From contig RPGP01000001.1 in assembly GCA_004193555.1 (NCBI GenBank), forward strand, positions 338,156 through 402,155: a stretch of 64,000 nt of DNA, in the 5' to 3' direction. Below the pieces are notes generated by a model. The model was not told the DNA's origin and did no database searches. It saw only the letters and a program-made list of their open reading frames with translations. The position numbers and the translations under genes were made by a program. This document shows, piece after piece, positions 4,637-22,026 of the stretch (within the stretch, counting starts at the first letter, position 1; every line of letters starts with the position of its first letter). Origin of the DNA: Desulfobacteraceae bacterium Eth-SRB1. GTDB taxonomy: Bacteria; Desulfobacterota; Desulfobacteria; Desulfobacterales; ETH-SRB1.

Positions 4637-4670
4637 CTATCCCTCTTGTCCTGGTTTATGTTGAATAAAC

Positions 4671-4720
4671 ATATAGTATATCTTGTTCTGATAATTTTCT
4701 AATGATATATAGAATATCTT
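4671..4720. promoter_or_regulatory. 14 bp direct repeats in divergent promoter region
   Basis: ATATAGTATATCTT (4671-4684) and ATATAGAATATCTT (4707-4720) differ at one base and lie in the intergenic space between the divergent adaptor and helicase genes. Repeats spaced about 36 bp start to start could be regulator-binding sites. No regulator gene is adjacent, so this is inference from spacing and position only. Confidence 0.3.
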
Positions 4721-4805
4721 ATAAAATCAATCCAAATTAATAACTTAGAGATTCCTTTGCAAAACTTTCCCGTCTTATCGGGTCTGAAGCTCAGGAAAAC
4801 AAATA

Positions 4806-6935
4806 ATGTATAGACAAAATAAATATCGGCCAGGGAGAAGAGGCCGAAAGAAAAAACCTGATAAGGCTTTGCGGGCGCTGAAGTTAAAGCCGGGTATGGA
4901 CGCCGGGCTGAAAAAAGTTTTTTCGTCCATAGGTGTGCCCAAAAAATCGGTATTTAAGCCTGATTCATTCCAGCTTGAGGCGCTTGCCGCAATAAGCAGG
5001 GCGGACTGTCTTGTTACCGCGCCCACAGGGGCAGGAAAGACCTGGATAGCTGAAAAAGCAATGGCCCGCATACATGCAAATGGCGGGAAATCCTGGTATG
5101 CCTCCCCTTTAAAGGCTTTATCAAATTCAAAGTATCATGAGTTTTCGGAAATATTCGGCAAAGAAAATGTCGGCATATTAACAGGCGACAGAAAAGAAAA
5201 TCCTGGCGCGCCGATTATTGTCGGGACCACTGAAATTCTTCGCAATCAGTTGTACGATGTCATGCATTCAGGAGAGACCCTGTCTGCTGATTTGGTTGTT
5301 CTTGATGAGGCGCATTTTTTAGGCGATGAAGAAAGGGGAGTTGTCTGGGAAGAAATAATGATATATCTTCCCTCCAGAATACCACTGCTTTTGCTTTCCG
5401 CCACTATAGGAAATGCAAACCAAATAGCAAGATGGCTTTCATCAATACGATCAAAAAAATGCATTGTTGTTGAGGATAAAAAAAGGCCTGTTCCGCTTTT
5501 TCCGCTTTTTTTTCATCCTTCAGGCAAACTTTTTCCACTGACCATTAAAAGCAGCAAGGGAAGAAGAAACAGAATTTACAAAAATGTTTCCGATTATTTA
5601 AAGATCAAACGTCCTCCGCTTCTTGCTCCTCCCCGCAAATTGCCTCCTTTTGGGGAAATTATGCGGGTATTAAACAAATATCATCTCCTTCCAGCTATTT
5701 TTTTTCTTAAATCACGCGCAGATTGTGATAATGCGCTGAAGCTTTGTGAAAAAAACATTATCAGTAATCAGGCTATAAAAACAAGGCTCAGCCGGAGAAT
5801 CGATGAGCTTGTAGCGCAGAACCCCTACATTACAAAACACCGCCAGCGCAGGTTTCTTGAACATTTGGCGGTGGGAGCGCACCACAGCGGCCAACTGCCC
5901 GCATGGAAACTGGTATTGGAGAGCCTTATGACAGAAGGGCTTCTTGACGCAATCTTTGCGACCTCAACTGTTGCCGCAGGAGTGAACTTTCCGGCCAGAA
6001 CAATTATTCTTCTTAATTCAGACAGGTTCAACGGCAAAGAATTTCTGCCATTAAACCCTACGGAATTTCATCAGATGACAGGAAGAGCAGGCAGAAGGGG
6101 AAAAGACAATATCGGATTTGCGGTGACAATCCCCGGCAAATTCATGGATATAAGGCTGGTTGCAAAGCTTGTAAATTCCTCTTCGTCAGATGTGCTGAGC
6201 CAGATCAGGATAAACTTCTCAATGGTACTTAATTTGCTGATGTCGTATAATCCCGGGCAGATAGAGGATCTTCTTGATAAATCTTTTGCAGCATACCTGG
6301 CCTCGAAGAAAAAAAAGGCAGGCATGAAGCTTGTTGAAAACAGCCACAGGTATTTATGGCAGGATTTCATGCAGCATTATAATTTCCTGATAAAAACAGG
6401 ATATGTGTCTAAGAATGGAGAGTTGACAGATGACGGAATATGGGCGTCCCATCTTAGGATTGATCAGCCTCTTCTGGTAGCAGAGGGTTTCAGGTTAGGC
6501 GTTTTTCCCGAATCTGACCCAGCCCTTCTTGCTGCTATAATAGCGGTATTTGTTTATGAAGAAAAATCGGATGATGAAACTGAAAAACAGGTAATGCCAA
6601 AAAAACTTCTAACTACTTTTAATCATGTAGAAAAAAAGCTCAGGCCGTTTTTAAATCATATGGAAAGTAATGGGTTTGAAGTCAGGCAGCCTGTTTTAAA
6701 GCCAGCCGCCATAATTTATGCCTGGGCAACGGGACAGCCATGGGAAGAGATAATTTCGCTTTATAAAATTGAAGAAGGAAACCTTGTCTCGCTGATTTTC
6801 AGAACCGCTGATAATCTGAGACATATTAAAGCGCTTATAGAAATATTTCCCTTAGCTGCTTTAACAGCTGAACAATCTATTGAACTTATCCTGCGGGAAC
6901 CAGTGCTTATGGATTATGATTTGATGGTCTCGTGA
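4806..6935 (+). CDS. DEAD/DEAH-box (Ski2-like) ATP-dependent helicase
   Basis: Superfamily 2 nucleic-acid helicase of 709 residues. After a basic N-terminus (RRGRKKKP) come the Q-type region, Walker A APTGAGKTW (about 71-79), motif Ia SPLKALSNSK, motif II LDEAHFL (about 167-173), motif III SATIGN and motif VI TGRAGRRG. The C-terminal part looks like the winged-helix and ratchet region of the Ski2/Hel308 group. The role could be RNA unwinding or DNA repair; the sequence alone does not decide. It is transcribed away from the RND operon and converges on the DinD-like gene. A weak ribosome site (CAGGAA) lies upstream. Confidence 0.88.
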   Translation: MYRQNKYRPGRRGRKKKPDKALRALKLKPGMDAGLKKVFSSIGVPKKSVFKPDSFQLEALAAISRADCLVTAPTGAGKTWIAEKAMARIHANGGKSWYASPLKALSNSKYHEFSEIFGKENVGILTGDRKENPGAPIIVGTTEILRNQLYDVMHSGETLSADLVVLDEAHFLGDEERGVVWEEIMIYLPSRIPLLLLSATIGNANQIARWLSSIRSKKCIVVEDKKRPVPLFPLFFHPSGKLFPLTIKSSKGRRNRIYKNVSDYLKIKRPPLLAPPRKLPPFGEIMRVLNKYHLLPAIFFLKSRADCDNALKLCEKNIISNQAIKTRLSRRIDELVAQNPYITKHRQRRFLEHLAVGAHHSGQLPAWKLVLESLMTEGLLDAIFATSTVAAGVNFPARTIILLNSDRFNGKEFLPLNPTEFHQMTGRAGRRGKDNIGFAVTIPGKFMDIRLVAKLVNSSSSDVLSQIRINFSMVLNLLMSYNPGQIEDLLDKSFAAYLASKKKKAGMKLVENSHRYLWQDFMQHYNFLIKTGYVSKNGELTDDGIWASHLRIDQPLLVAEGFRLGVFPESDPALLAAIIAVFVYEEKSDDETEKQVMPKKLLTTFNHVEKKLRPFLNHMESNGFEVRQPVLKPAAIIYAWATGQPWEEIISLYKIEEGNLVSLIFRTADNLRHIKALIEIFPLAALTAEQSIELILREPVLMDYDLMVS

Positions 6936-7010
6936 AAAGCTATAATATACCGCTTCACGGCACTGTAACCAAAAAAATAACTTATCCTATGAAAGGTTAA
7001 TTTATTATAC

Positions 7011-7079
7011 CAGAGAAAATATATGTCTGCGATCTCCGTAAAAGACCAACAATAAAACAAGAAATGCATAAAATCATGG
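7011..7079 (+). repeat. 69 bp dispersed repeat, copy a
   Basis: One of three long copies in this window (others at 10327-10395 and 57380-57448; a partial copy at 54872-54900). Shared features are CAGAGAAAATATAT at the start, a central CTCCGTAAAAGACC-type core, and GCATAAAATCATGG at the end. This copy lies just beyond the 3' end of the DinD-like gene, in opposite orientation to it. It can be read as a short peptide, but the copies carry many non-synonymous differences and one has a stop, so I treat it as a non-coding repeat. Confidence 0.6.
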
Positions 7080-7105
7080 GGTTGTATGCTCTTTCGTCCA
7101 AAATC

Positions 7106-7140
7106 TCTTTTGATTCTCTTAAAACTGTTTCATCATTATT
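7106..7140 (+). repeat. 35 bp direct repeat, left copy flanking DinD-like gene
   Basis: Matches 8018-8052 in the same orientation with three mismatches over 35 bp; the last 20 bases are identical. It overlaps the last five bases of the gene at 7136-7990, so the two copies bracket that gene almost exactly. This may be the trace of a duplication or of integration of a small cassette. Confidence 0.6.
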
Positions 7141-7990
7141 CATCACCGTTCTCAAGTAAATTCTGTTCGCTTGATAGCAAATAATTAGTTTTTGTACTTA
7201 CTTTTTTCCGTGTTTTCTTTTCCAGTTCTTTTCGTGCATTGCCGGCAATGCCTCCGCCTTCTCTGGAGTCTTCTTTCAGTTTATTAAAACCTTGCGAGTC
7301 ATCCGACTTAGTAATTTCTGTGGTTGCCCGCTCGCCGAGCATTGAAAAAATAAGCTCAAGGTCAGTCATATGGTCACGCAAATTTTCCCGTTTCAGATTT
7401 TTAAATTCCTTATATTCAGCTGGCGTCATCCCAAATATGGCTTTAGAAATTTCCGCAGTTAGGATGGAATAGTCTTTTTGTTCTTCTATCCCTCTGTTTT
7501 GCCATTCATTTGTCAACTCTTCCCGAATGGCAATGCCGCGCATTCTTTTTTCTATCCAGTCATCCGGATAGCCTTTAGCCTTGTACAAAGCCCTTGCTCT
7601 TTTGGTTGATAGTTCCGGATCTTCTATTTCCTGTACACGTTCATAACCGACTTTAGCCAGCCATCGTTTGAATGGCTCAGCCTTTGGCGATGGGATAGAT
7701 TGTATGAGCCTGAAAACACCTTCGGTATTCCAGCAATAAGCCTTCTGCTTGCCGCCGGCAGTATCAATTTCTAACCTAAGGGGTGGTACAAACTGTACCC
7801 CCCCTTGATCAACCAGGTTTTTCAGTTCTGAGTCACGTAACTTCATTCTCTTAAAGTACTGTGCGGGATCTTTAGAATCTGTAAGCGCTTGGATTACATC
7901 ATTAATCACAAACCACCATTCGTTATTATAAATGGTTTTTCTAATTTCTTTTTTTCTAAAGATAGCTATTCTGGTTGTTTTGTCGTTCAT
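7136..7990 (-). CDS. BRO-N / DinD-like protein
   Basis: 284 residues. The N-terminal half is a BRO-N (phage antirepressor-type) DNA-binding domain: WWFVINDVIQALTDSKDPAQY, then a segment ending in SIPSPKAEPFKRWLAKVG. The C-terminal half resembles E. coli DinD: DHMTDLELIFSMLGERATTEI followed by an AGNARKELE segment. DinD is a LexA-controlled, RecA-inhibiting protein, but the role here is unknown. The start is backed by AAAGGA six bases upstream. The gene lies between two 35 bp direct repeats and just downstream of a group II intron, inside an accessory region. A truncated relative is at 57478-57666. Confidence 0.75.
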   Translation of the reverse strand: MNDKTTRIAIFRKKEIRKTIYNNEWWFVINDVIQALTDSKDPAQYFKRMKLRDSELKNLVDQGGVQFVPPLRLEIDTAGGKQKAYCWNTEGVFRLIQSIPSPKAEPFKRWLAKVGYERVQEIEDPELSTKRARALYKAKGYPDDWIEKRMRGIAIREELTNEWQNRGIEEQKDYSILTAEISKAIFGMTPAEYKEFKNLKRENLRDHMTDLELIFSMLGERATTEITKSDDSQGFNKLKEDSREGGGIAGNARKELEKKTRKKVSTKTNYLLSSEQNLLENGDE

Positions 7991-8017
7991 AAAAAATCCT
8001 TTATGGTTTTCAGATTT

Positions 8018-8052
8018 TCTTTTGGCTCTCTCAAAACTGTTTCATCATTATT
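8018..8052 (+). repeat. 35 bp direct repeat, right copy flanking DinD-like gene
   Basis: Second copy of the repeat at 7106-7140, placed 28 bp upstream of the DinD-like start and 33 bp from the predicted 3' end of the group II intron. Confidence 0.6.
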
Positions 8053-8123
8053 GCTGGTAACCTCCAACATTCACTTTCGGGACGATTGGGTAAAAACCAC
8101 AGTCACCTGAGGTAATCCCCGTT

Positions 8124-8157
8124 AGAACCCATCGTGCCCTATTAAGGCAATGGGCTC
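8124..8157 (-). ncRNA. group II intron domain V
   Basis: 34 nt that fold into a lower stem GAGCCCAT/ATGGGTTC, a two-base CG bulge, and an upper stem TGCCT/GGGCA closed by a short loop. The AGC catalytic triad is at bases 2-4. Length, bulge and triad fit domain V of a splicing-competent intron. Confidence 0.85.
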
Positions 8158-8185
8158 ACGATTAAATCTTTGTATCTTTAGATAT

Positions 8186-9472
8186 TCAAAACAGCCTATG
8201 GTATATCTTCGCTTCCGGTGGTGGAAATCTTAATAGAAATAGTCCAAATTGATCAAAGGTCATCGATTTTCTTTGACTACGACGGTTTATCCATTTGAAA
8301 AATATCTTTACAGATTTAAATATAAAACCTTGAACGGCTTTAGAATTAAAGGATATGCCATAGTATTGAACGTGACCTCTTAATTTTCTACAAAAAGATC
8401 TCCATAATTCCGGTAATGGGTGAATATTGCGATTTTCTTTGCACCACACATTTACTTTAGTAAGTTTACTTCTTAATTTCTTACCACAGCTTTTAAGTTT
8501 TGGTACAACCCTGCCACTTTTTGTTAATCCGAGGTAAAATGTAAAGCCTAATAAATCAAACGATTTACTATTTTTCCTCTCAAATTTGTTAAAAACAATT
8601 GTTTTAGTTTTGTCGCTATTCAATCGAAGTTTAAACTTTGACAACCGTTTTGGTAGAACTGCCCTGATTCTTTCAGCATCATTTGTGTTTTCACAGCAGA
8701 TAACTGCATCATCGGCATAACGGAAAATTTCGACATTACCTTTACAATGATTCTTAACAGTCATGTTAAACCAATCATCAAGTGCATGATGTGCATAGAT
8801 ATTGGCTAATATTGGACTACAAATGCTGCCTTGTGGCACTCCTTCATCGCTTACTATTAGTTCTCCATCACTAAGAATACCTGCTTTAAACATACGCCGG
8901 ATATATCTTAAAAAGCGTTTATCTTGTATCTTGTTTGACAATTGCTCCATCAATAGTTCATGGTCGATTGTTCCAAAATAGTTCGATAAGTCAAGATCAA
9001 TAATTTTCCTCACTGGCTGGCTGTATAGATGTCCCCGAAGTGCTTTAATCGCATCATGGCAACCTAATTTTGGTCTAAACCCATATGAGCTATTCCAAAA
9101 TAATGGCTCATAGATAGCTTCAAGAACTTTCTGCACTCCCTTTTGAACAGTTTTATCTTCAAAATTGCCTATCCCCAATGGTCTTGTAGCTCCTTTACTT
9201 CCTTCTTTAGGAATTAATATTTGCTTTACAGAACCGGGAACATAGGACATTGTCTTCAGCTTTTCCAGTAGAGTATCAAGATTCTCTTCAAGATTTTTAC
9301 CATATTCTTCTTTTGTCATACCATCACTACCGACCGCTGCTTTTCTTTTGAGCGATTGATACCAATTCAGCAAATTTTCTTTATTGAAGTGGTGCATCAA
9401 TTGATTAAACACCATTTCAGGATTTTCTGCTGATAATCTATTTATTATTGCAAATTTTGTTCTCATAATCAC
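8186..9472 (-). CDS. ltrA: group II intron reverse transcriptase/maturase
   Basis: 428 residues. RT blocks include the RPLGIGNFEDKTVQKGVQ region, SSYGFRPKLGCHDAI, GVPQGSICSPILANIY and the catalytic FRYADDAVICC (YADD near residue 252). The maturase (X) region contains WRSFCRKLRGHVQYYGI. There is no C-terminal HNH endonuclease domain, so mobility would rely on single-stranded or replication-fork DNA targets. Translation may begin at GTG 9472 or at ATG 9466 two codons later; neither has a strong ribosome site. All RT motifs are intact, so the intron may be active. Confidence 0.93.
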   Translation of the reverse strand: MIMRTKFAIINRLSAENPEMVFNQLMHHFNKENLLNWYQSLKRKAAVGSDGMTKEEYGKNLEENLDTLLEKLKTMSYVPGSVKQILIPKEGSKGATRPLGIGNFEDKTVQKGVQKVLEAIYEPLFWNSSYGFRPKLGCHDAIKALRGHLYSQPVRKIIDLDLSNYFGTIDHELLMEQLSNKIQDKRFLRYIRRMFKAGILSDGELIVSDEGVPQGSICSPILANIYAHHALDDWFNMTVKNHCKGNVEIFRYADDAVICCENTNDAERIRAVLPKRLSKFKLRLNSDKTKTIVFNKFERKNSKSFDLLGFTFYLGLTKSGRVVPKLKSCGKKLRSKLTKVNVWCKENRNIHPLPELWRSFCRKLRGHVQYYGISFNSKAVQGFIFKSVKIFFKWINRRSQRKSMTFDQFGLFLLRFPPPEAKIYHRLF

Positions 9473-10020
9473 CGATATTCTGTGTTATCTATTATGTGTC
9501 CTTCACAATAGCGATTTAACCTGAACCCCTTCCCTCCACCGGCATTACCCGGCTTCTTCAGTACTATGAGTTCTCTGACTCCCTATTATTCGTCTCAACT
9601 TTCTCGCTTATTAGGCTTGTAATTGATACTCTATCCTTGGAGAAACAATAGGGTCTCCCACGTTTATAAAATAGCTTTGTTTGCATGCCAGGCTCTACGA
9701 TCCCGAAGGTGTCATAGCTTCCTCCCCATTTAGTGTCGGCTATGATATTGCTTTCTGACGCCGCGAAGCCATCAGCCATCCTCAAATGACAAAATTAACG
9801 GAACTCAATCACTTCAACATATGTTTCCGGCCTACAAACTCTCTGTCTACGCTTTACAGTGCCTGTTACCAGACACCGCACAAGACTCGATAATCGATGT
9901 GCTGGGTTGCACTTTCGATGCATTCACTTTCAGATGCCAGTTATTTTACACTTCGTGGCGCACCGCGGCGATTCCCGCCAGCAGGAATGACAAAAGCGTG
10001 TGCTTGGTGGTTTAACTTAA

Positions 10021-10315
10021 CTCAAGTTTCGCACCCTTAATTTCTATCAATGTCAAGACGGTAAGGGTTGAAAATAACATTTTTACAGTGAATTCATTTG
10101 CTTATATCTTGTAAACAGCACCCTGTGCGACATACATTACGATCAGGCGCAAAGGAGATATAACATATTGAATTTAACAACGTATTAAGCATCAATTTTA
10201 TACTTAATTGATTGGCGCCGTTGTTAAAACCACAGGTAATATGTTTCGCTTTAAAATTTATTTTTAGCCCTTACCGTCTAACGCTTCGGCTAAATTAAAG
10301 GGTGCGAAACTTGAG
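10021..10315. mobile_element. 295 bp MITE with terminal inverted repeats, copy 1
   Basis: The ends are inverted copies: CTCAAGTTTCGCACCCTT on the left and its exact complement on the right. A second inner pair is GACGGTAAGGG and CCCTTACCGTC. ACTTAA flanks both ends (10015-10020 and 10316-10321), a probable target-site duplication. There is no ORF inside. A near-identical copy lies at 32379-32673 and a 5'-truncated one at 27591-27718. No transposase with matching ends was found in the window. Confidence 0.8.
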
Positions 10316-10326
10316 ACTTAATAAGC

Positions 10327-10395
10327 CAGAGAAAATATATATCTGCGATTTCCGTAAAAGATCAAAAATAAAACAGGAGACGCATAAAATCATGG
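10327..10395 (+). repeat. 69 bp dispersed repeat, copy b
   Basis: Second copy of the repeat at 7011-7079, starting 11 bp after the MITE. The surrounding 10316-10654 holds no gene I can support. An open frame of 62 codons (10302-10490) runs through the repeat, but its repeat portion is interrupted by a stop in the copy at 57380. Confidence 0.6.
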
Positions 10396-10654
10396 ACGTT
10401 TCGCTGACTGAAGCCAGCCGTCATCCGGGGATGTCGCCTTCTGTAATTGCTAAAACGCTTTATCGGTTAAATAACCATAAGTCTAATTAGTCGAGGATAT
10501 CCCCAAAAACATAAATTGCCCGCAATGGTTGGATCTGGTCAAACAATAAAAACCGAGCGGTGATACCGATTCTAAGGGCAACAGATTTTAAAGTTGAGTT
10601 AGGGCTATACGGTGAGGTAAAAATGTCTAACTTTCCCCTTTTACCCTGCAAGAC

Positions 10655-11251
10655 TCAAAATTTGGCACCAAAGCAATGCTCTCCCAGAATGTCCTGTGGT
10701 TTTCCATATATTCCGGGTTTATACTTTTTCTGCAACCATTTCAGAAAGCCATTTACAATTTCAGTGTCATGGCTGCATTTGCAACCCTGCCGCTTTAATA
10801 TCAGCTCTCCATATCTGCCCGGCAGAGAACCCGCATGCTCACCAAAATAATAAAAACGTTTTGATATATACACAAACGGATTCTTGAGATCTTTTTTTCT
10901 ATCTTTCGGCGTATTATGAAATTGTGAGGGGTGCTGCTTCCATTTACCTCTTTTGTCCTTAAAATACATATTATCTCCACACTGTCTGCGCCATGTTCCG
11001 TTTTTATCCGGTTTCTTTCTTTTAAACCGCGGATCATTATAATATTGATAAAATGAAAGAATCTCTTCCACCTGCATGGCAAAGATCAGTTTATTGCCTT
11101 TTGCTACCGAACTATTCCCAACAAACCAGTCACCCTTTTCAGCTTTTATCCCCATATGGTTTGGAGTGCACAAGGCCAGAGTGCAGTATCCCCAAAAAGG
11201 ATTAGGCGCTAGACCTTTATCGTTTTTTACCACATAAGAGCATAAGCGCAT
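10655..11251 (-). CDS. Nmad2-domain protein (nucleotide-modification-associated)
   Basis: 198 residues from ATG 11251, which has AGGAG eight bases upstream; a longer frame from 11317 would overlap the preceding gene. The protein begins MRLCSYVVKNDKGLAPNPF and continues WGYCTLALCTP, GDWFVGNSS, QVEEILSFYQYYNDPRF, GDNMYF and RFYYFGEHAGSLP. This order is the hallmark of the Nmad2 family, which was predicted from gene neighbourhoods to act with modified bases or nucleotides in phage and bacterial systems. Its biochemical activity is not known to me. It is the last gene of a three-gene cassette, 31 bp after the NucS-like nuclease. I am fairly sure of the family and unsure of the role. Confidence 0.72.
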   Translation of the reverse strand: MRLCSYVVKNDKGLAPNPFWGYCTLALCTPNHMGIKAEKGDWFVGNSSVAKGNKLIFAMQVEEILSFYQYYNDPRFKRKKPDKNGTWRRQCGDNMYFKDKRGKWKQHPSQFHNTPKDRKKDLKNPFVYISKRFYYFGEHAGSLPGRYGELILKRQGCKCSHDTEIVNGFLKWLQKKYKPGIYGKPQDILGEHCFGAKF

Positions 11252-11282
11252 ATATTTGTCTCCTGAGATGTGGTTATTGGCC

Positions 11283-12191
11283 TTAAGTCCATTGATTAAC
11301 TGAAAGCAGCCATCCATAGGTAAAAATCTTTATGCTTTTAAGTTTTTTAAACTCTTCCTCAAAAGCAGGCATAACCCCTTTACAAATTATAACACCCGTG
11401 ACATCTTTTTTGGTGTCCTTTTTTAGCTGGCTAATGTATCTTTTAATTTGCTTTACAGCATCTCTTCCGATTTTATTCAGTTTCAACTCAACTACGATTA
11501 ATCTTTTTTTCTTATCCTCAAAAAGCAAATCAATCCTTCCCGCAGGTGTGTCACACTGCCGTCTTATCAATTTTAATGATCTTCCAATAAGCCCAGGGTT
11601 CTTCTCGACAAACCCCTCAATATCTTTTTCGATGATTTCCGTTACTTCATCAGTGGAAAGAATTGTGTCAACACCAATGCTTTTATCCTCAGACAATTTA
11701 ATTTCTTTTAATAGTGTTTTAACATCGTTATCAGTTAGCTCTCGCCAGGATCTTGTTGCTGAGCCTATAGCTTGTGTTTCTGTTTTATCTTTTGGAAATT
11801 TGATGTTAAGCGAAAGTCTGTTCGCAAGCGCTTTATCAAACAATAAGGGCCTTTCTAAAATCCTTGATAAAATAGGATCCCCAAATAAAATAACATTATT
11901 TTCGACATCAGTTACTTCTCCTGATTTTAGTTCTGACATATGAGGATTTTTAAATTTAGCAGTGATATTCCTGTCTTTAACTGCCTCAACTGTATCTATT
12001 ACACGGTCTACCACATAATAAGCAGTAATATGTTTTCTACCTCCAATACTTGTATGGAAAAATACATGTTCTCCTTTCTGAAGACCGGTCTTAAGCTTTT
12101 TGCTCCTTGATCCTCCTTCCCCATAGGTAAACTCATCAAAAAGCGGATCAGGATGATTATATAAATATATATATGGAATAAGCAGGTTCAT
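11283..12191 (-). CDS. putative reader domain fused to NucS/DUF91-like nuclease
   Basis: 302 residues. The C-terminal half (about 185-300) is a PD-(D/E)XK nuclease of the NucS/DUF91 type: EGFVEKNPGLIG, then GRIDLLFEDKKKRLIVVELK with the catalytic Asp, Glu and Lys, then VKQIKRYISQLKK. NucS enzymes cut mismatched or branched DNA. The N-terminal half has FFHTSIGGRKHITAYYVVDRV, FGDPILSRILERPLLFD and IGSATRSWREL. I do not recognise it as a named family; its pattern could fit a small PUA/EVE-like beta-barrel that reads modified bases, which is inference. GGAG lies 12 bases upstream of the start. It is 16 bp downstream of the glycosylase-like gene and 31 bp upstream of the Nmad2 gene. Confidence 0.68.
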   Translation of the reverse strand: MNLLIPYIYLYNHPDPLFDEFTYGEGGSRSKKLKTGLQKGEHVFFHTSIGGRKHITAYYVVDRVIDTVEAVKDRNITAKFKNPHMSELKSGEVTDVENNVILFGDPILSRILERPLLFDKALANRLSLNIKFPKDKTETQAIGSATRSWRELTDNDVKTLLKEIKLSEDKSIGVDTILSTDEVTEIIEKDIEGFVEKNPGLIGRSLKLIRRQCDTPAGRIDLLFEDKKKRLIVVELKLNKIGRDAVKQIKRYISQLKKDTKKDVTGVIICKGVMPAFEEEFKKLKSIKIFTYGWLLSVNQWT

Positions 12192-12207
12192 AATATAAAT
12201 TTACTCC

Positions 12208-13024
12208 TTATTTAATTAATTTTTTCAAAACCCTGCTGCATGGTCCGCACAACCGTGTTGGCGGAACACAGAACAGAGGGATCTTTGAATTTCCTTTAAT
12301 ATGTCCTTTCAGCTTCCTTGTACTGGCAAGCTTTACATTATATTCTGGATCATTTTCAGAGCGAAGACTATTCCAGGCGTTTTTCTGAAATGCTATTACA
12401 GCACCTTTGGGTGTTACAAACTTTTTCGCGCATTCAAGCACTCTTTCTGTTTCTTCTTTTTGAAGACGCCTTAAGGCTCTTTTGCCAAGAAGTTTATGAA
12501 TACCAGCAATTCCGCCCCATTTGCCGCCGGGCGCGCTTGGCATGGATATGATCACGCAAAGTCCTATGCGGAATGGAGAATCATATTTCAGGTTAAATAA
12601 AGTTTCACGTTGTTGCCTGTTAAGTTTAGCTATTGTTTGATTAGAATCAAAAGGAAGATCCAGAAGACCAGCTGGTTTAAGGATATTTTTCCAAAAACGG
12701 TGTTCCTTTTTGTTGCCTTCAAATGAAAAGAACATTCCAGCTTCAACAGAATGCGTTGCAGGATTGCCGAAAACGAACAAGAGGGGAGGACGCTTATCTT
12801 TTTTAATTGGAATAAGTTGTTCAGATCTATATGTAAGCAGATTGCCTTTTTTTTCTATATACCTTTTTATTATCAGGATCAGAGTTAATAAAATCTGCCC
12901 ATTTTGCATTAAACTTTATTCTTTCTTCTTTTGTTTTAAAAAGTTCGCCAAAATTAATTTCACAATCAATAGTACAGCCTTTTGATTTACGCCATGCAAG
13001 AAGATTTTGATGTTTATTTATCAT
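12208..13024 (-). CDS. UDG-superfamily DNA glycosylase-like protein, split by frameshift in A8 tract
   Basis: Two overlapping frames make one protein. Frame one (13024 to 12827) gives about 59 residues ending in NKKVYRKK, and frame two continues GNLLTYRSEQLIPIKK. They meet at a run of eight A (plus-strand T8 at 12847-12854); with seven A they would be one ORF of about 271 residues. The main part has PLLFVFGNPATHSVEAGMFF, then HRFWKNILKPAGLL, like the GINP-x-S-x-G-x-F and RFW-x-L-x-AG motifs of Mug/TDG-type uracil-DNA glycosylases, and ends IPLFCVPPTRL where the second active-site loop would lie. It is first in the cassette with the nuclease and Nmad2 genes. The slip could be real, expressed by polymerase slippage, or an assembly error. 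Confidence 0.58.
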
Positions 13025-13063
13025 CTGTTAAGAATGTCTTTAATCACTGACCAAGGTTTGATA

Positions 13064-13069
13064 ATTATA
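13064..13069 (-). promoter_or_regulatory. -10 box upstream of glycosylase-nuclease-Nmad2 cassette
   Basis: On the minus strand a perfect TATAAT lies 40 bp before the first ATG of the cassette. The upstream -35 region (around 13087-13093) is poor, so activation or a weak basal promoter is possible. This would let the cassette be transcribed independently of anything upstream. Confidence 0.35.
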
Positions 13070-13130
13070 TAAAGTGCTTCATAACCAGACTTGAATAAAT
13101 ATACGCTGGAATCGATTTACATTCAAGGGT

Positions 13131-13169
13131 AAAAAATAAGGGCGGCATGTCGCGAATAACCCCCTTATT
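13131..13169 (-). terminator. hairpin with T6 tail on minus strand, upstream of cassette
   Basis: On the minus strand AATAAGGG (13169-13162) pairs with CCCTTATT (13142-13135) and is followed by a T run (13136-13131). It lies upstream of the cassette start, so it would insulate the cassette from read-through or act as an attenuator. Confidence 0.45.
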
Positions 13170-13285
13170 TGGAAAAAATAACTTTCAATTTCTTGTCCAA
13201 CATTATATCCTCTGAGCAATACATCAGGTTATTCCTCTTCAGTCCCAAATTCATCCGACAAAGCGATGATGACAGATGGTTATTC

Positions 13286-13416
13286 TTGACTATTAAATAA
13301 TATATGATACTTTACACTCAATGATTTTTGAGTGCTGGCTTTAACCTTCAGCAGGAGTAGCCATAAAATGAATATAAAGATCCCATTTCTCAGATAGCAG
13401 AGAGATGGGGTTTTTT
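13286..13416 (+). ncRNA. candidate small RNA ending in an intrinsic terminator
   Basis: The 516 bp between the cassette and the lipoprotein gene has no ORF but is structured. TTGACT (13286-13291) could be a -35; the best -10 candidates are imperfect. Downstream is a perfect 7 bp hairpin CACTCAA/TTGAGTG (13315-13334), then a TGGCT/AGCCA stem (13336-13363), then a terminator hairpin CCCAT-TT-CTC/GAGATGGG followed by T6 (13382-13416). The expected transcript is about 100 nt. No known RNA family was recognised. It could instead be a leader of an inactivated gene. Confidence 0.33.
13382..13416 (+). terminator. intrinsic terminator of candidate small RNA
   Basis: CCCAT and CTC pair with GAG and ATGGG across a ten-base loop, with a two-base TT bulge, followed by six T. 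The shape and U-tract are convincing. No plus-strand gene ends here, so it must terminate either a small RNA or read-through. Confidence 0.55.
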
Positions 13417-13540
13417 CTTTCTTTTGAAAGGGAGAGGGCATGGAATTAAAAAATTTGGTTCTTCTCCGAATTGGTTGTAAAAAGCCTGATAGATTTTTAG
13501 TGTAAAGTAGAGTAGATCAAAGAATAGGGATATTAAGCCA

Positions 13541-14038
13541 ATGAAAAAATACCTAATTGTTATCTTGACTCTTTTATTTGTGGGGTGTAGTTCGATTCCA
13601 ATTAAATCTGACAACGGTAGTTTTAGAAATAGTCTCAAATCTAAATATTATAAAAAAGCTGATTATATAGAATATAGCAAGCCCTCCCGAGAAATGCTAA
13701 ATAATGTCGATATTGATGAAGTTGTTCGACGTGGCCTGAGAACTGCTTATCTTTCCAATATTGGCATGGTTATATATATAAGATTAAATAAAGACGGGCT
13801 AAGACCAAGTATAAATGATGATAAACTATGGGTCTTTTTTAATCGAATTTATGCTGATGGTAAAATAAAAGGATTTAAAATAACAATTTGTGAAGAACTT
13901 CCAGGTAAGAAGTGTTTTAATTTTGTTACTTATCAAGAAATATTTATAAATAAAAAAGGAGAATTTATTATCCGTGAAAATATTTCTAAAAAAGAAGCAA
14001 CAAGAAAACGAGTTAAATGGGACGATACAAGGATATAG
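13541..14038 (+). CDS. hypothetical lipoprotein
   Basis: 165 residues. A short signal peptide MKKYLIVILTLLFVGC ends in a lipobox (LFVGC), so the mature protein should be lipid-anchored at Cys16. The rest is rich in Lys, Asn and Ile and contains NIGMVIYIRLNKDGLRPSI, a stretch reminiscent of TonB-C-like folds, but I do not recognise the family. The gene is markedly AT-rich compared with the housekeeping genes, suggesting acquisition. AGGGAT lies about ten bases before the ATG. It stands alone. Confidence 0.65.
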   Translation: MKKYLIVILTLLFVGCSSIPIKSDNGSFRNSLKSKYYKKADYIEYSKPSREMLNNVDIDEVVRRGLRTAYLSNIGMVIYIRLNKDGLRPSINDDKLWVFFNRIYADGKIKGFKITICEELPGKKCFNFVTYQEIFINKKGEFIIRENISKKEATRKRVKWDDTRI

Positions 14039-14656
14039 GGACTTAACCTATCAACTTATTTGCCAGTCAGCGAATATTTTATAATTTTTTTAGCTTTTCT
14101 TCTCGAATTACCGATTTATCGATCCGCATAGAATATCCAAGAGCATGGTATCATGGCACCTGCCTGTGTAATGAAAGAAAGGATATCTTTCCTGGGCCGG
14201 ATTATTCTTAATAACAAAGTCCAATCATGAACCACCTGTCAACAACTTTCCAGAACTGACTCGCTTAGTTCACCTTCATAAATAAATACCGGGCGAATAG
14301 AAATATTTTTAGGGTTTTTCAGGGTTGAAATTTTCTTATCAATTTCTCTGTATTTACTCAGCCTGAATTGTTTGCGTCTATAAAACGTTTTTTATTTTTT
14401 GAGACCTTTACAAAACGCCCCCTTTTGCCCAATTAAGCGCTGATGGTTAGCGCTTTCGCTTCACTACGTGTCAGCATCAGTCTCAAATTTTAAGCCTTGA
14501 AACACTCAATTTATCCCTACATTCATAATTCCTTGTTCGACACTCTGCGGTTCAGAAAAAGTACTTACAAAACCGATAGTTACCATATCTTCGCTCCCAC
14601 GCTCCTGCATTGGAATGCATAAGGGAGAAGGAGTTTTTTGACTTTTTACGACGCCA
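14039..14656. other. 618 bp gene-free region
   Basis: No gene is supported. It contains the dispersed repeat at 14401-14510, a segment CCTTGTTCGACACTCTGCGG (14531-14550) that recurs in diverged, inverted form near 39015-39085, and GACTTTTTACGACGCCATCA (14639-14658), which matches the end of the inverted-repeat element at 32218-32366. It looks like a graveyard of small mobile repeats. Confidence 0.5.
14401..14510 (-). repeat. dispersed intergenic repeat, inverted relative to 34755-34860
   Basis: Read on the minus strand it gives TTGAGTGTTTCAAGGCTTAA, AATTTGAGACTGA, a variable middle, then GGGCAAAAGGGGGCGTTTTG. The plus strand at 34755-34860 carries the same blocks in the same order with a different middle. 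Conserved ends with a variable centre suggest a folded mobile element. Confidence 0.5.
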
Positions 14657-15232
14657 TCAAAATTTTACTTTCGGCACAGCCTTCTCCGCTTCTGGAATTT
14701 CATAATACTCAGCTTTAGAAACCCCGGCAAATGCGGCATATAACCTTCCAACAAATGTCCGGATATATGTGTTTAAACCCTGAACCGCATCGTTATACCT
14801 CTTTCGTTCAACCGCAATTCTATTTTCGGTGCCTTCGAGGCTGTCCTGAAGCTTCAGAAATGACTGATTTGCCTTAAGATCCGGGTATCTTTCCTGAAGA
14901 AGAAGAAGTCTTGAGAGTGTGCCTTCAAGACGGTTTGCGCTTTCGACTTTATCTTTTACGGTTTTTGCCTGGAAGTATTTTGTCCTGGCCTCTGCAATAT
15001 TTTCAAATAATTCTTTCTCGTGTTTTGCATAGCCCTTAACTGTTTCAATCAGATTCGGAATGAGGTCATATCTCCGCTTTAGCTGATTTTCAACCTGAGC
15101 CCACTTACCTTTGACATTTTCATCCATTGCAATGACTGTATTATAACCACTGATAAGCCTTCCTATTACAAGGATACCAACAAGTAAAACAACACCTGCA
15201 ATTATAAGAATTGTTTTTAACGATTTTGACAT
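14657..15232 (-). CDS. lemA: LemA family protein
   Basis: 191 residues from ATG 15232, chosen because GGAGGG lies just upstream; an ORF extension of 15 residues to 15277 lacks a ribosome site. One N-terminal membrane helix (about 5-25) is followed by an all-helical domain with the family signature: YNTVIAMDENVKGKWAQVEN, QLKRRYDLIPNLIETVKGYA, FENIAEAR, and a C-terminal FVGRLYAAFAG. LemA proteins commonly neighbour TPM-domain proteins, as here. The molecular role is not established. The gap to the TPM gene is filled by an IS200-ended palindromic element. Confidence 0.9.
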   Translation of the reverse strand: MSKSLKTILIIAGVVLLVGILVIGRLISGYNTVIAMDENVKGKWAQVENQLKRRYDLIPNLIETVKGYAKHEKELFENIAEARTKYFQAKTVKDKVESANRLEGTLSRLLLLQERYPDLKANQSFLKLQDSLEGTENRIAVERKRYNDAVQGLNTYIRTFVGRLYAAFAGVSKAEYYEIPEAEKAVPKVKF

Positions 15233-15269
15233 AAAGCCCTCCATGAAAATGTAAAGAATCCTAGCCCAA

Positions 15270-15515
15270 AGGACCATGCTTTGGTTTGCCCCTGAAAGGA
15301 GCTGTTTTGCTTAAAGACGTACAAATTTAAAGTGCCTAAAGTGAGCTAAAGTGCCTAAAGTTATGGAGTCGCTTTGCTCCGCTGATTTTATATGATTGAC
15401 AAAATTCCTTAACTTTAGGCACTTTAAACTTTAGCTCACTTCAAACTCTTGCAGCGTTTCTTCAGGCAGAGCCGGAAAACTCTAACCTGGCCCTGAGAAC
15501 CAGATTTTTCGAGAT
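15270..15515. mobile_element. non-autonomous IS200-like palindromic element, copy 1
   Basis: Its left end (TCCTAGCCCAAAGGACCATG, then TTTGCCCCTGAAAGG) is clearly related to the left end of the element at 52707-52900, and its right end (CTAACCTGGCCCTGAGAACC then TTTTTCGAG) matches both that element and the right end of the IS200 copy near 54867. There is no ORF. Internally, GTGCCTAAAG repeats form an inverted pair (15325-15363 with 15409-15444). Such palindrome-ended elements can be moved by an IS200 TnpA acting in trans. Confidence 0.55.
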
Positions 15516-15522
15516 AAAATAA

Positions 15523-16302
15523 CTACCAGCCTCCGGAAACGCCGCCTCCGCCGAATCCGCCGCCTCCGCCACCGAAACCGCTACCTCCGAAACCGCCCCC
15601 GCCACCCCATGAGCCACGCCTTCCACCCATCGATGATAAAAGAAAGAGCATCAGGAAGAGTCTTGGGTTTTTTATAAACAGGATAGCAAGAATTACAAAA
15701 AAAAGCAGCGATATTATAGTGCCGAAAATACCGGCAGGTTCATCTTTTCCTGTCCGTTGAACTGAGCGTTTCAATGCCGGCATTCCGGTTATCTTTACCC
15801 CGGCGTCCTCGGCAATCAAATTTGCCATTACTGCGGCAGCGGCAAAAATACCGTTTGAATAGTCACCCTTTCTAAAAAAAGGAACAAGATAAGAACGGCC
15901 GATGCTTCCGGCCAGGCTGTCGGGGATCACGCCCTCAAGGCCGTAACCGACTTCAATCCTGTATTTTCTTTCCCTGTAAGATACCAGCAGTAAAATTCCA
16001 TTGTCTTTTCCTTTTTGGCCGAGTTTCCATTGATCATGAGCCACGGTTATTGATAAATCTTCAATCGATTCTCCTTCAAGACTCTTGATAGTAAGAATGG
16101 CAATCTGTGCTGTTGTCTTTTGTTCGAGTTCTTTCAGATATTGATTGAGTCTAGCCTCGGTAGAGTTATCAATGATTCCTGCAAGGTCAACAACATGGCT
16201 GCCTGGATTTTCCGGTATGCTGACAGCATGCGAAAAAGACACCGGCAGAAGAAATAAACACAGGATTAAAAAAAGGGCAATCAAATTAAACTTTAATTTC
16301 AC
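15523..16302 (-). CDS. TPM-domain protein (YgcG-like), secreted/membrane-anchored
   Basis: 259 residues from GTG 16302, where a clean signal peptide begins (KLKFNLIALFLILCLFLLPV, cleavage near SHA). The frame is open to ATG 16368, but those extra codons coincide with a dispersed repeat of the ATCTGTGTGAATCTGTGGC type, so I prefer the GTG. The TPM domain (about 25-150) has VVDLAGIIDNSTEARLNQYL, the ILTIKSLEG strand, DNGILLLVSYRERKYRIEVG and GYGLEGVIPD. A membrane helix (IISLLFFVILAILFI) and a Gly-rich tail ending VSGGW follow. It pairs with LemA downstream. TPM domains have been linked to phosphatase activity and photosystem maintenance; the role here is unknown. Confidence 0.85.
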   Translation of the reverse strand: MKLKFNLIALFLILCLFLLPVSFSHAVSIPENPGSHVVDLAGIIDNSTEARLNQYLKELEQKTTAQIAILTIKSLEGESIEDLSITVAHDQWKLGQKGKDNGILLLVSYRERKYRIEVGYGLEGVIPDSLAGSIGRSYLVPFFRKGDYSNGIFAAAAVMANLIAEDAGVKITGMPALKRSVQRTGKDEPAGIFGTIISLLFFVILAILFIKNPRLFLMLFLLSSMGGRRGSWGGGGGFGGSGFGGGGGGFGGGGVSGGW

Positions 16303-16564
16303 GCAACTATTCAGCCACCGATCTACGCTGATCATCACTGATATTTTTTCTTTTATTATCATATACAACTCATTTGAATTCTGGTTTTTGCTAAAATTTA
16401 ATAATAAGCCAACTTCAACATTTGTTGCCTGCCCGCCATTACGAGCTCAGGCGAGGCGGGTGGATTTTCAAGTAATTGATTGATTAAGCTTCAACCTTCT
16501 AAAAATAATAGCTGTAATTTCTTTATATTTAAACCTATCTGCGTTCATCTGTGTGAATCTGTGG

Positions 16565-17305
16565 CTAAATAATTACAATTTCATCTGTAATATCCCCCAA
16601 CTTCTCGATAGCTTTGTAATAGTCTTCGAATATTGAGTTAAGAACTTCAATAGAAAGTTTTGTTTTATCTTTCTTAGCCTTTAAAACCGTCCTGAATACA
16701 CCGGTGTTGACGCCGGATACTTCCTGCAGGGTTGAAAGTACTTTTTCATTTTCTCTGGCCGCTGGTTTATCAAAAAGAACAATTATGCCCCTGAAAAGCG
16801 GGATATATCCTGAAAAGGAACTAATAAACAGGTCTGAAAGGAATTTCCTGTTTCCGGCAGAGGTAAGGTATCCCTGCCTGAGTCCGATTAATCTGACTTT
16901 CAGTTCCCGTTCGCACTGGTGCCTGAGATCAGCCCTTTTAATTTCAAGATCGCTAAAGATATCCTCGCCAAAAACGGTTTTATGAAGCGTCTTTATTGTC
17001 AGAAATTCAACAGGAAAAACATCAAGGGAGCTAAGGATATACTCCTGGGTCATAATAAGAGGGGAAGAAATCTTTTTTTTTCCGAATTTCTTTCCAAGAG
17101 GCGCAAAATCTTCAAGAAATTTCAAATCCATCTTATTAAGAACAAGGATAGAATTGATATCCGAAGTGTCAGGATTGAAATCTTCAGTCAAAGCGCTGCC
17201 TGTAATATGAATTGAATGGAGCTTGTCCTTGTAATTGTTTAATACAACATCCAGAAAAGGTTTAAATTTACCCGCAGCCCCCTCCTTCATGTTCAGATCA
17301 TTCAT
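16565..17305 (-). CDS. nucleotidyltransferase-fold protein
   Basis: 246 residues. The start has a strong site, AGGAGG four bases before ATG. Near residues 34-53, HITGSALTEDFNPDTSDINS matches the GS-x10-D-x-D core of Pol-beta-type nucleotidyltransferases. The middle has FPVEFLTIKTLHKTVFGED. The C-terminal half is helical. It may transfer nucleotides to a small molecule or protein, or be an inactive antitoxin-like relative; I cannot tell. It lies upstream of the TPM and LemA genes on the same strand, with a 262 bp gap. A dispersed repeat of the type TTAGCCACAGATTCACACAG begins at its stop codon. Confidence 0.6.
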   Translation of the reverse strand: MNDLNMKEGAAGKFKPFLDVVLNNYKDKLHSIHITGSALTEDFNPDTSDINSILVLNKMDLKFLEDFAPLGKKFGKKKISSPLIMTQEYILSSLDVFPVEFLTIKTLHKTVFGEDIFSDLEIKRADLRHQCERELKVRLIGLRQGYLTSAGNRKFLSDLFISSFSGYIPLFRGIIVLFDKPAARENEKVLSTLQEVSGVNTGVFRTVLKAKKDKTKLSIEVLNSIFEDYYKAIEKLGDITDEIVII

Positions 17306-17541
17306 AAAACCTCCTAAGATTTTATAGAGCTTAAAAAATCAAACAGATAACAGATTCAGCTAATAGCTAATAGCTTTATCACAAGTCGTCAACTATAGAT
17401 TTCCAGATAATCTGAATCCCCGCTCCCGGATCGGAGTCGAGGACAAGCTTCGCGGAAATAACGAGACAACACATGAGAGGAGTAACCGGTGGATTTTATG
17501 GCATAATTTTATCAACGATTAGAATTCGAAAACTCAAGCAA

Positions 17542-20500
17542 TTATTTTCGTATAAAACTACTCGCTTTTTTCCACAAATTCAACCCAGATACCCACGTTT
17601 TTGCTTTTTCAATTTCCAGTGACACATAATTGTCAAAGCCTATTGTATCTCTTGGCCAGATGCGGAAGCCGGAAAACAGTGGGGACTTTGCATGTCTGGT
17701 TGTCACTTCCTCCATATGCTTCATCTCCTCCCTGGCCGCAATGATCATGAAATGCAGCCTGTTTAAGATATTTACCTCGCTTGCCCCGGCGTCCATGTCA
17801 AGAGAAAGCAGATTTAGGCGGGGAAATATTTCTTTAAGTTTTTTCTCCATGCCTCTTCCGGTAATATGATTTGAAATACAACCGAACGGCTGAAGGCAGA
17901 CTATATTGCCGATTCCTTCATTGAGCATGGCAATCATCTCGCCAGTCAAAAGCCATCCCTCTCCGAACTGGTTGGCCAGGCTGACTACCTCTCCCGTGAC
18001 TTCAGCCAGATCTTTCAGATTAAAAGGCTTTCTGTAAAAACGAAATTGCTGCATGACCCTTTCTATCTGATAAAGATGATATCTTGTATAAAAATACATG
18101 AGCTTATGTTTAAGGCTGTCAGCAATGGAATGCTTAAAAAAAGCGCTTTGATCAAAATCTTCATTAACAAACCTCTGAGCAAAAAAGTTCTGCAAACAGG
18201 GAAGTGCCACTTCCACTCCCTGGTCAGAGAGCCACTCTATGATGTTTCCATTTGAAAAAAAGTTGTATTTAACAAATATCTCGCCCACCACCCCTATCTT
18301 GGGAACAGGCCGATCTGCAACTTTAACGCTGTTAAAGTCTGTTACCGCCTTTTCCAGCACGTTAAGAAGATAATGATAATCCGCTCTTTCAATACCTGTT
18401 TCCATTGCCGAAAGATATTTGGCATGCAGGGCCTTTGAGTCGCCCCGACTCTCCTCCCTTACTATCGTAGCCAGGTACATCTGAGTCAGAGGATCAGTAA
18501 AAATTACACCCAGAGCCATCCGTTTGATCAGTTCCTTTTTATCAATAATAAATCCAGGTTGAGAATTGATATCATTATTAGATATAGCAATTATCGGAAC
18601 ATCTTCCAGCCCTGCATCAGTCAGTCCTTTCCTGATAAGCGAAACATAAGAGGATGCCCGGCATTGGCCGCCGGTCTGGGTTAAGATTATTGATGTCTTC
18701 TTTGGATCATATTGACCGGATTGAAATGCCTTGATTATATCCCCTGCAACAAGAATCGCCGGATAGCACATGTCGTTATTAATGTTCTTAAGGCCGTATT
18801 CCACAGATGCCTTGTCCTGTGGCGGCAACACATCGAGCCGGTAGCCCAGGGGCTTGAAAGCGGCAGGAAGAAGCGGAGAAGAAAATGGAGAAAAATAGGG
18901 GGCAATAAGAGTTCTATCCCTGTCTTCTGGCATGAAGACACGGTTTGTTTTCTTTTTCCAGCGTTTTGAGCGCAAAGATCTATTCGCATTTTCTTTCACC
19001 GCTTCCAGCATGGAACGTAGTCTGATCCTGACCGCGCCCAGATTGGATATTTCGTCCATCTTGATCGATGTGTAAATCTTTCCGTACCCCTTGAGGATAT
19101 CTCTTACTTCATCGGCAGACACAGCGTCAAGGCCACAGCCGAAAGAAATAAGGTGGACCAGTTCGCTATGATTATTTTTTCCGACCCAGCCGGCCGCAGC
19201 ATAGAGTCTGTTGGTGTATGTCCACTGGGTAAGAACGTCAACATCGGCAAGGGACTGATCTTTATCCACAGGAACAGCGTCTTCGCTTATAACATCGACC
19301 CCCATAGAGGTCAAAAGTTCCGGAATGCCGTGGTTGATAAGCGGGTCTATATGATAAGGCCGACCCGCCAGGACAATGATTAGCCGACCTTTGTTTTTGG
19401 CCTCATTTATTAGAGGGGCAGCCCTGTCTCTCAGTTCTTTCTTGAATTTCTTTTGAGAGGCTAATCCCTGTTTTACGCCCTTTGCAACACTCCTGTAGTC
19501 AATGCCGAATTGCCTGAAAAAAACGTAAAGCTGCTTTTTTAACAACTCGCTGTCCCGAAAGCTGACAGCCGGATTATCAAGAGGTATTTTGTATTTTCCT
19601 TCCGGGTCGATTGCGCTTTTCACCACATCCGGATATCCGGTAACAACCGGGCAGTTAAAACTGTTCAGGATATCCTGGTATTCTTTTCTTTCGTGAACCA
19701 CAATCGGATAAAAGATTCTGTCAACTTTACGTTCCAGAAGGTCAAAAATATGTCCATGCGCAAGTTTTGCAGGAAAACAGATATTTTCCGACATTACTGT
19801 TGAGGCTCCTTTTTCAAAGAGCTTGAAATTAGATGGAGAAGAAATAACAACCTTAAAACCGCATGTAGTCAAAAAGGCAGACCAGAAAGGAAAATTTTCA
19901 TACATGTTCAAACAGAGCGGGATGCCAAAGGTAAGGATCGGATCGCCTTCAGGTTCCATTTGACGATCAAACAGGAGTTGTAATTTTTGTGCTATTAAAT
20001 TGCTTCCCCTGTCTTTTGTTCTGGCGCTATTACTAAAATGCCGTTCACAGCGGTTGCCCGTAAAAAACTTGTTCCCACTGGCGAATGTGAGTTTCATGAC
20101 AGCGCACCTGTTTTCGCAGCCGCCACATTCTATTTCCTTTTTGGTGAAATCGATTTTTAAATCAGAAGCATTTTCAAGGCCGGCAAATCCTTTTGATTCA
20201 TCAGGACTTAAGCGATGGTTATTAAGGGCTGTAATGGCTGCTCCGTATGCTCCCATTAACGCCGGAATATCAGGACGAACAACCTCTTTGTTAAGCAGAA
20301 GTTCAAATGCCCGCAATACCGCCGGATTGCGAAAGGTTCCCCCCTGGGCAACAATTTTGTTCCCTAAGACCTCGACATCTCTTAATTTGAGAACCTTGTA
20401 AATAGAATTTTTAATTACCGAATAAGCAAGTCCCGCTGAAACGTCGGCAACTGTTGCTCCTTCGCGCAATGCCTGCTTGACCTTTGAGTTCATAAAAACA

Positions 20501-21990: not shown

Positions 21991-22026
21991 CCTTCAGCTT
22001 TGAGCCTTTGAGCCTTGAGCTTTCCC

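Follow-up and report, generated by a model that had tools for sequence, protein, structure and literature searches.

Three minus-strand genes stand in a row in a 64,000-nucleotide stretch of the Desulfobacteraceae bacterium Eth-SRB1 genome (hereafter the window): a glycosylase gene (12208-13024), a nuclease gene (11283-12191) and an Nmad2 gene (10655-11251). They raise the question of whether one system here senses a nucleotide modification, excises the modified base and cuts the DNA, as proposed in a preliminary description of the locus, which called it a type IV-like defence module. The proposal is partly supported: its domains are real and its logic is plausible, and the defence role would follow by inference from the genes that accompany these families elsewhere. 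Nmad stands for 'nucleotide modification associated', a name that the domains reportedly received in a paper of 2013.

Layout and setting of the cassette

The gap between the glycosylase and nuclease genes is 16 bp (12192-12207) and that between the nuclease and Nmad2 genes is 31 bp (11252-11282), in agreement with the spacing of 16-31 bp given earlier. The order and strand of the three-gene cassette also stood, but its first member does not run unbroken from 13024. The claims of an own -10 box and of an insulating hairpin were over-read. There are 10 promoter-like sites in 3.6 kb against 11.9 expected from shuffles, and the upstream hairpin (-13.4 kcal/mol) has a z value of -1.35, with 16 of 200 shuffles being as stable or more. 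Both features were dropped as evidence.

The GC content per 1-kb bin is 0.31-0.41 at 7001-14000, compared to 0.44-0.48 at 1001-6000 and 0.38-0.47 at 14001-22000. A group II intron lies near the cassette. The contrast in GC of the accessory island described earlier is modest on its right flank. Searches of the whole window by tblastn (E 0.01), in which three TIR and three MazG proteins were among the queries, gave no match to TIR, MazG, 5-hmdU kinase, thymidylate synthase or a second UDG.

The Nmad2 protein and its neighboring nuclease

The Nmad2 protein (198 aa) was recognized correctly from the outset, matching PF18753 with 170 bits and E 5.9e-50 against a gathering cut-off of 26.1 bits. Its closest counterpart among the loci compared shows 53-54% identity and belongs to locus L118 of a genome in the same order; the next shows 41%. 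Nmad2 occurs in 9 of the 291 genomes of the order, and a class-wide search (5 of 275) added no genome. Searches of phage records gave nothing, no PHROGs family matched at E 0.1, and the best sequence match to a solved structure has E 0.06. In viral contigs none was found with a single-protein query, and an alignment query found 7.

The nuclease (302 aa) consists of two domains. Its C-terminal half matches PF01939 (NucS_C) with E 4.5e-17 over residues 188-275 (11367-11630). Residues R219, D221, E235, K237 and Q248, which we take to be the catalytic positions, are also found in the Peribacillus protein described below. The domain thus appears to keep intact PD-(D/E)XK residues, as expected of a Type IV restriction nuclease. 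Against the NucS chain 2vld, residues 188-282 align to chain residues 127-217 of 251 (E 2.6e-8), and the NCBIfam NucS equivalog scores are 72 bits against a cut-off of 216, and 51.1 against 252. Because the alignment is confined to residues 188-282 and the equivalog cut-off is missed, the enzyme is not NucS/EndoMS. It shares the C-terminal nuclease domain with that family, but nothing in it matches the NucS N-terminal half. The NucS-type nuclease proposed earlier therefore holds for the domain and not for the enzyme. A single-sequence structure model of the nuclease was useless (pLDDT 38), so that its fold is argued from sequence.

The N-terminal domain had been left without an assignment. It has no Pfam match and misses the PF18754 (Nmad3) gathering cut-off of 27 bits. 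The sole full-length relative found, WP_061466399.1 on the Peribacillus simplex plasmid pSHB26 (39-40% identity over 95% of the query), reaches 13.1 bits with that model (E 0.076), also below the cut-off. Other nuclease matches, from the plasmid, phylum and order searches, start no earlier than position 149 of the protein or model. When the pair of N-terminal domains from the window and Peribacillus was aligned by hhalign to five Nmad3 proteins, the probability was 70.2 (E 4e-5), and with the two closest Nmad3 proteins it was 92.9 (E 3.8e-7), compared to 0.1-0.5 for six unrelated control profiles. It should be mentioned that these two were picked after the motif HxDPxFxxxTYG had been seen by eye, which makes 70 the less selected figure, and that the domain in the window escapes plain tblastn with Nmad3 proteins. 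Based on this remote profile homology, we regard residues 9-117 (11841-12167) as an Nmad3-like domain and a putative sensor of a modified base or nucleotide. The core of the cassette is then an Nmad3-NucS_C fusion with Nmad2. No sequence kinship between Nmad2 and Nmad3 is detected (hhalign probability 0.2).

The plasmid gene encoding WP_061466399.1, of the same two-domain architecture, is followed by MazG-like and HNH genes, and the 17 kb examined there contain neither an annotated Nmad2 nor an annotated UDG gene. A plasmid search with Nmad3 gave 4 records. Scans of viral contigs with single proteins and with alignments found no relative of the nuclease, phage records gave nothing for its N-terminal domain, and the best PHROGs match of the nuclease has E 0.0015. 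In the open-licence papers searched, which do not include the 2015 nucleotide-centric survey cited in the DefensePredictor paper, we found no description of an Nmad3-NucS fusion or of the trio.

The glycosylase, its frame and its fold

The glycosylase gene is split, which had been missed along with the Nmad3 identity of the neighboring domain. Two open reading frames, 12827-13024 and 12208-12909, lie in different frames and meet at a run of eight A residues on the coding strand (12847-12854), where the alignment of the relatives is continuous. The first, of 65 aa, corresponds to the N-terminus of the family (71% to L007 and 65% to L006 by tblastn), and in these two relatives the piece is in frame with the glycosylase. 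The main body (12208-12834) has 71% identity to four Desulfobacterota relatives. The 11 relatives that a scan of genome contigs detected are all from Desulfobacteraceae or 'Deltaproteobacteria' MAGs. A single frame of about 270 aa is present in 9 of them (with L005 and L009 extending further and L012 ending at a contig edge), whereas the copies in L014 and L015 are interrupted or incomplete. The offset in the window may stem from an assembly error, a real mutation or slippage, which the sequence does not distinguish. With dN of 0.17-0.21 and dS of 1.5-1.85 (saturated with L007), the body shows purifying selection relative to its relatives, which gives no date for the frame offset. The distribution of the family in Desulfobacterota is patchy; it is found in 20 of the 291 genomes of the order, several of them with fragments only.

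The glycosylase body has no family in Pfam, NCBIfam or PADLOC at E up to 1, and the UDG model PF03167 is not matched by its ORF (Pfam, E up to 1). For four full-length relatives, Pfam searched to E 10 and NCBIfam searched to E 1 yielded stray weak matches and none to a UDG model. The structure model of the relative L006 (pLDDT 83.6; two of five models were good) aligns with human TDG at Z 11.1, with an rmsd of 3.4 over 173 residues, and Foldseek gives E 6e-4, probability 1.00 and TM-scores of 0.40/0.52 for the same protein. UdgX follows at Z 10.9 and MUG at Z 10.6. The model thus supports an alpha/beta UDG fold for the family and bears out the membership in the UDG superfamily proposed earlier; since UdgX, family 4 UDG and MUG are all within 1 Z of TDG, the assignment stops short of a subfamily, and TDG-like is used here in that sense. 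The preliminary description had set a glycosylase fold and a NucS fold as its own check, and the former was obtained for the glycosylase family (Z about 10-11 for TDG, MUG and UdgX), with the latter indicated by the PF01939 and 2vld matches. G86-N87-P88-A89 and P255-T256-R257 are invariant in 10 aligned sequences and may correspond to the catalytic motifs of TDG/MUG.

Scans of viral contigs with single proteins and with alignments found no relative of the glycosylase, plasmid and phage-record searches gave nothing, no PHROGs family matched at E 0.1, and the best sequence match to a solved structure has E 0.91. In L010 and L013 the gene of this family sits immediately upstream of one for an Mrr-type restriction endonuclease, and in L008 and L010 a C5-cytosine methylase and an HhH-GPD glycosylase are encoded nearby.

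Recurrence of the roles and competing readings

The exact trio was rejected as a recurring operon. The window genome is the only one of 291 with both the glycosylase family and Nmad2, compared to a chance expectation of 20 x 9 / 291 = 0.6, and none of the 19 other glycosylase loci (at most 18 contigs, as L014 and L105 share one, and some below 6 kb) carries relatives of Nmad2, Nmad3 or NucS_C. Of the earlier view that the trio should co-occur, what survives is its roles, which recur in L118 and in plasmid and viral loci, played by parts without detectable sequence kinship. L118 has an HhH glycosylase, Nmad2 and a nuclease in this order, that is, the same three roles as the cassette with another glycosylase superfamily, another nuclease N-terminal domain and another gene order. 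Its glycosylase matches Ogg-HhH (E 3e-4) and an N-glycosylase/DNA lyase model (E 9e-7), both below curated cut-offs, and its nuclease joins DUF7669 to NucS_C (E 5e-15 and 5e-13) and matches the PADLOC candidate PDC-S02 (E 5e-26). Both plasmid homologues found for the HhH gene (2 of 2) are without Nmad2 or NucS among their annotated neighbors, many of which are 'hypothetical'.

On plasmids, 15 of 16 Nmad2 records were examined, H24 being left out with a match to 30% of the query. TIR adjoins Nmad2 in 14 of these 15 stretches (ThsB-like in the examples tested), and MazG is found in 11, a PF03167-type UDG in 8 (9 if one across a record's origin is counted) and a 5-hmdU DNA kinase in 5, the partner families being confirmed by Pfam on examples. 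The 7 viral contigs, with UDG in 4, MazG in 3 and TIR in 2, overlap this set in kind, as L163 resembles L144, the locus on the Parabacteroides plasmid. Homology among the plasmid and viral UDG operons means that they represent few independent events rather than separate origins, and the same plasmid UDG is on 45 plasmids compared to 16 with Nmad2, so it often lives without Nmad2. The chromosomal Nmad2 loci number 16 in 15 genomes; L120 and L123, on two contigs, share a genome and possibly belong to a single gene. Of the 16 loci, 5 have Nmad3 next to Nmad2 or close by, 2 have TIR with the kinase and 1 has the L118 arrangement; 8 have no partner that was sought (3 on contigs below 5 kb), and none has a PF03167-type UDG. 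UDG, MazG, TIR, kinase, Nmad2 and Nmad3 have no match in 65 control loci (342 kb), which were chosen for the window's glycosylase family or NucS_C rather than at random, many being about 3 kb. These absences are soft, since partners were sought with a small set of tblastn queries (E 1e-3). The fusion with Nmad2 is a variant of the recurring Nmad3/Nmad2 pair.

Compared to the Nmad2 sets (TIR, Nmad2, MazG or MazG_C, and UDG or 5-hmdU kinase), the cassette has in common Nmad2, a UDG-superfamily glycosylase and an effector-like gene adjoining Nmad2. Its effector, however, would be NucS_C fused to an Nmad3-like domain in place of TIR, the MazG, kinase and TIR of those sets were not found in the window, and no sequence relation between the two glycosylase families is detected (hhalign probability 0.4). 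Type IV (modification-dependent) endonucleases join a recognition part to a nuclease. The cassette shares this logic with Mrr-type and other such enzymes, but uses NucS_C with an Nmad3-like domain instead, and its modification-dependent cutting is a prediction.

Precedents for defence are found among DNA glycosylases. According to passages of the reports on them, Brig1 and Brig3 excise modified bases of phages and were derived by their authors from uracil DNA glycosylases (PMC11078745, PMC13160076). The window glycosylase is likewise related to uracil DNA glycosylases, judging by the fold of the L006 model; the operon partner of Brig3 is the hydrolase BapA, whereas that in the cassette is a nuclease. 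In the DefensePredictor paper, NMAD, thymidylate synthase and 5-hmdU DNA kinase appear in the legend of the figure on phage-tested, validated systems, while a passage of the text gives 5-hydroxymethyluracil kinase with thymidylate synthase as newly validated; another places MazG and an NMAD of unknown function among predicted defence domains awaiting validation, and UDG is among the abbreviations of the predicted-domain figure (PMC13092281). These passages, in text and legend alike, do not state which Nmad is meant (PMC13092281).

Considering all of this, we propose, at just short of an even chance, that the cassette is a modification-dependent conflict system, probably anti-phage, around Nmad2 and the Nmad3-like domain. 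The Nmad domains would recognize a modified pyrimidine, either as part of DNA or as a nucleotide. The fused NucS-type PD-(D/E)XK domain would be the effector that cuts DNA, in the place that TIR proteins fill in plasmid Nmad2 operons. If a working glycosylase is produced, it would remove modified bases of the same class, and the resulting abasic site would be a second lesion or a place to cut. We infer this order of steps and the cooperation of the glycosylase with the other two proteins. By analogy with the DefensePredictor passages and with Brig1 and Brig3, 5hmU, 5hmC or a similar modified pyrimidine is the most likely substrate. Support for a conflict system comes from the two Nmad-type domains in the cassette, one of them on the nuclease, together with the 5 chromosomal Nmad3/Nmad2 loci; from the exchange of roles among unrelated parts in L118, which holds the closest Nmad2 among the loci compared; from the plasmid and viral partners absent from the control loci; from the Mrr-type endonucleases downstream of the glycosylase family in L010 and L013; and from the DefensePredictor legend and the Brig precedents (PMC13092281, PMC11078745, PMC13160076). 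It is weakened by the uniqueness of the trio, the out-of-frame glycosylase and the missing TIR, MazG, kinase, thymidylate synthase and second UDG in the window. The homology of the UDG operons, the 8 chromosomal loci without partners sought, the neighbors of the plasmid HhH homologues and the passage listing NMAD among domains not validated (PMC13092281) weaken it as well.

The best-supported core is the Nmad3-NucS_C fusion with Nmad2. Membership of the glycosylase is favored by spacing and analogy and disfavored by uniqueness and the split frame, and it is possibly captured or damaged. That the fusion and Nmad2 alone form the functional unit, with the glycosylase a decaying, unrelated accessory gene that ended up 16 bp upstream, is possible but doubtful. 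All 19 other loci of its family are without the remaining parts, the gene is out of frame in the window, and broken or partial copies occur elsewhere (L014, L015 and several fragments); yet the body shows purifying selection, which gives no date for the offset, the 16-bp gap is compatible with co-transcription, and unrelated glycosylases accompany Nmad2 elsewhere. We consider it rather unlikely that the cassette is a complete excise-and-cut immune module, in which two sensors (Nmad2 and Nmad3), the fused NucS-type nuclease and a glycosylase that is TDG-like but belongs to a family not described before would act together and the cut would fall at or near the abasic site. The same logic would then have been assembled at least two times from unrelated glycosylases and reader domains, in the window and in L118, with TIR as the interchangeable plasmid effector.

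Repair of G:T or G:U by a TDG-like glycosylase and a NucS-like nuclease, similar to very-short-patch repair after deamination of 5-methylcytosine, would fit TDG and MUG being among the best fold matches and the C5-cytosine methylase and HhH-GPD glycosylase near relatives in L008 and L010. It is improbable, given that the nuclease has 72 of the 216 bits of the NucS equivalog cut-off and aligns to NucS over residues 188-282 only, that the glycosylase family is in just 20 of 291 genomes, and that Nmad2 and Nmad3 would be left unexplained. The split glycosylase, the group II intron and the low GC could also suggest a wholly non-functional remnant in a degrading island. However, the genes for Nmad2 and the nuclease keep open frames and conserved residues, and a lone offset at the A8 run in a draft of 52 contigs could be an assembly error or slippage, so that we hold this reading to be very improbable.

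With the conflict-system reading, the cassette looks like a new combination of components for which a part in phage defence was already suspected; its kind is known but largely untested. With an Nmad3-like domain naturally fused to a nuclease, and a nuclease in place of TIR beside Nmad2, glycosylases, Nmads and effectors would become parts of a single design, and the sensor role of these domains becomes directly testable.

Genes near the cassette in the window

Two further minus-strand genes lie near the cassette. One, at 7136-7990, encodes a Bro-N/DinD-like protein that matches the PADLOC candidate PDC-S13 (E = 3e-105). The other, in the stretch 8186-9930, encodes the reverse transcriptase of a group II intron, with a match to TIGR04416 (E = 6e-91); positions 9691-9930 of this stretch match group-II D1-D4-6 in Rfam.

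Relatives of the glycosylase and chromosomal Nmad2 loci

Genes of the window's glycosylase family are directly followed by Mrr-type restriction endonuclease genes at two loci, L010 (7812-9580, after a gap of 29 bp) and L013 (7818-9711, after 67 bp); of these two endonucleases, only that of L010 carries an Mrr_N domain.

The closest functional parallel to the window's cassette is found at L118, a locus from the same order, where an HhH glycosylase, Nmad2 and a DUF7669-NucS_C nuclease are encoded consecutively (2285-4499). Nmad2, TIR and a relative of 5-hmdU DNA kinase are co-located in L116 and L123, also from this order. At chromosomal locus L122, a 648-aa ORF (8827-10773) begins with an Nmad2 domain; its DNA methylase match is weak and under the cut-off.

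Nmad2 on plasmids and viral contigs

Nmad2 is accompanied by MazG/MazG_C and a PF03167-type UDG at plasmid and viral-contig loci L145, L146, L147, L151, L152, L154, L156, L157, L164, L165 and L169. This combination is a mobile, recurrent gene set. A TIR gene adjoins Nmad2 in 9 of these 11 loci.
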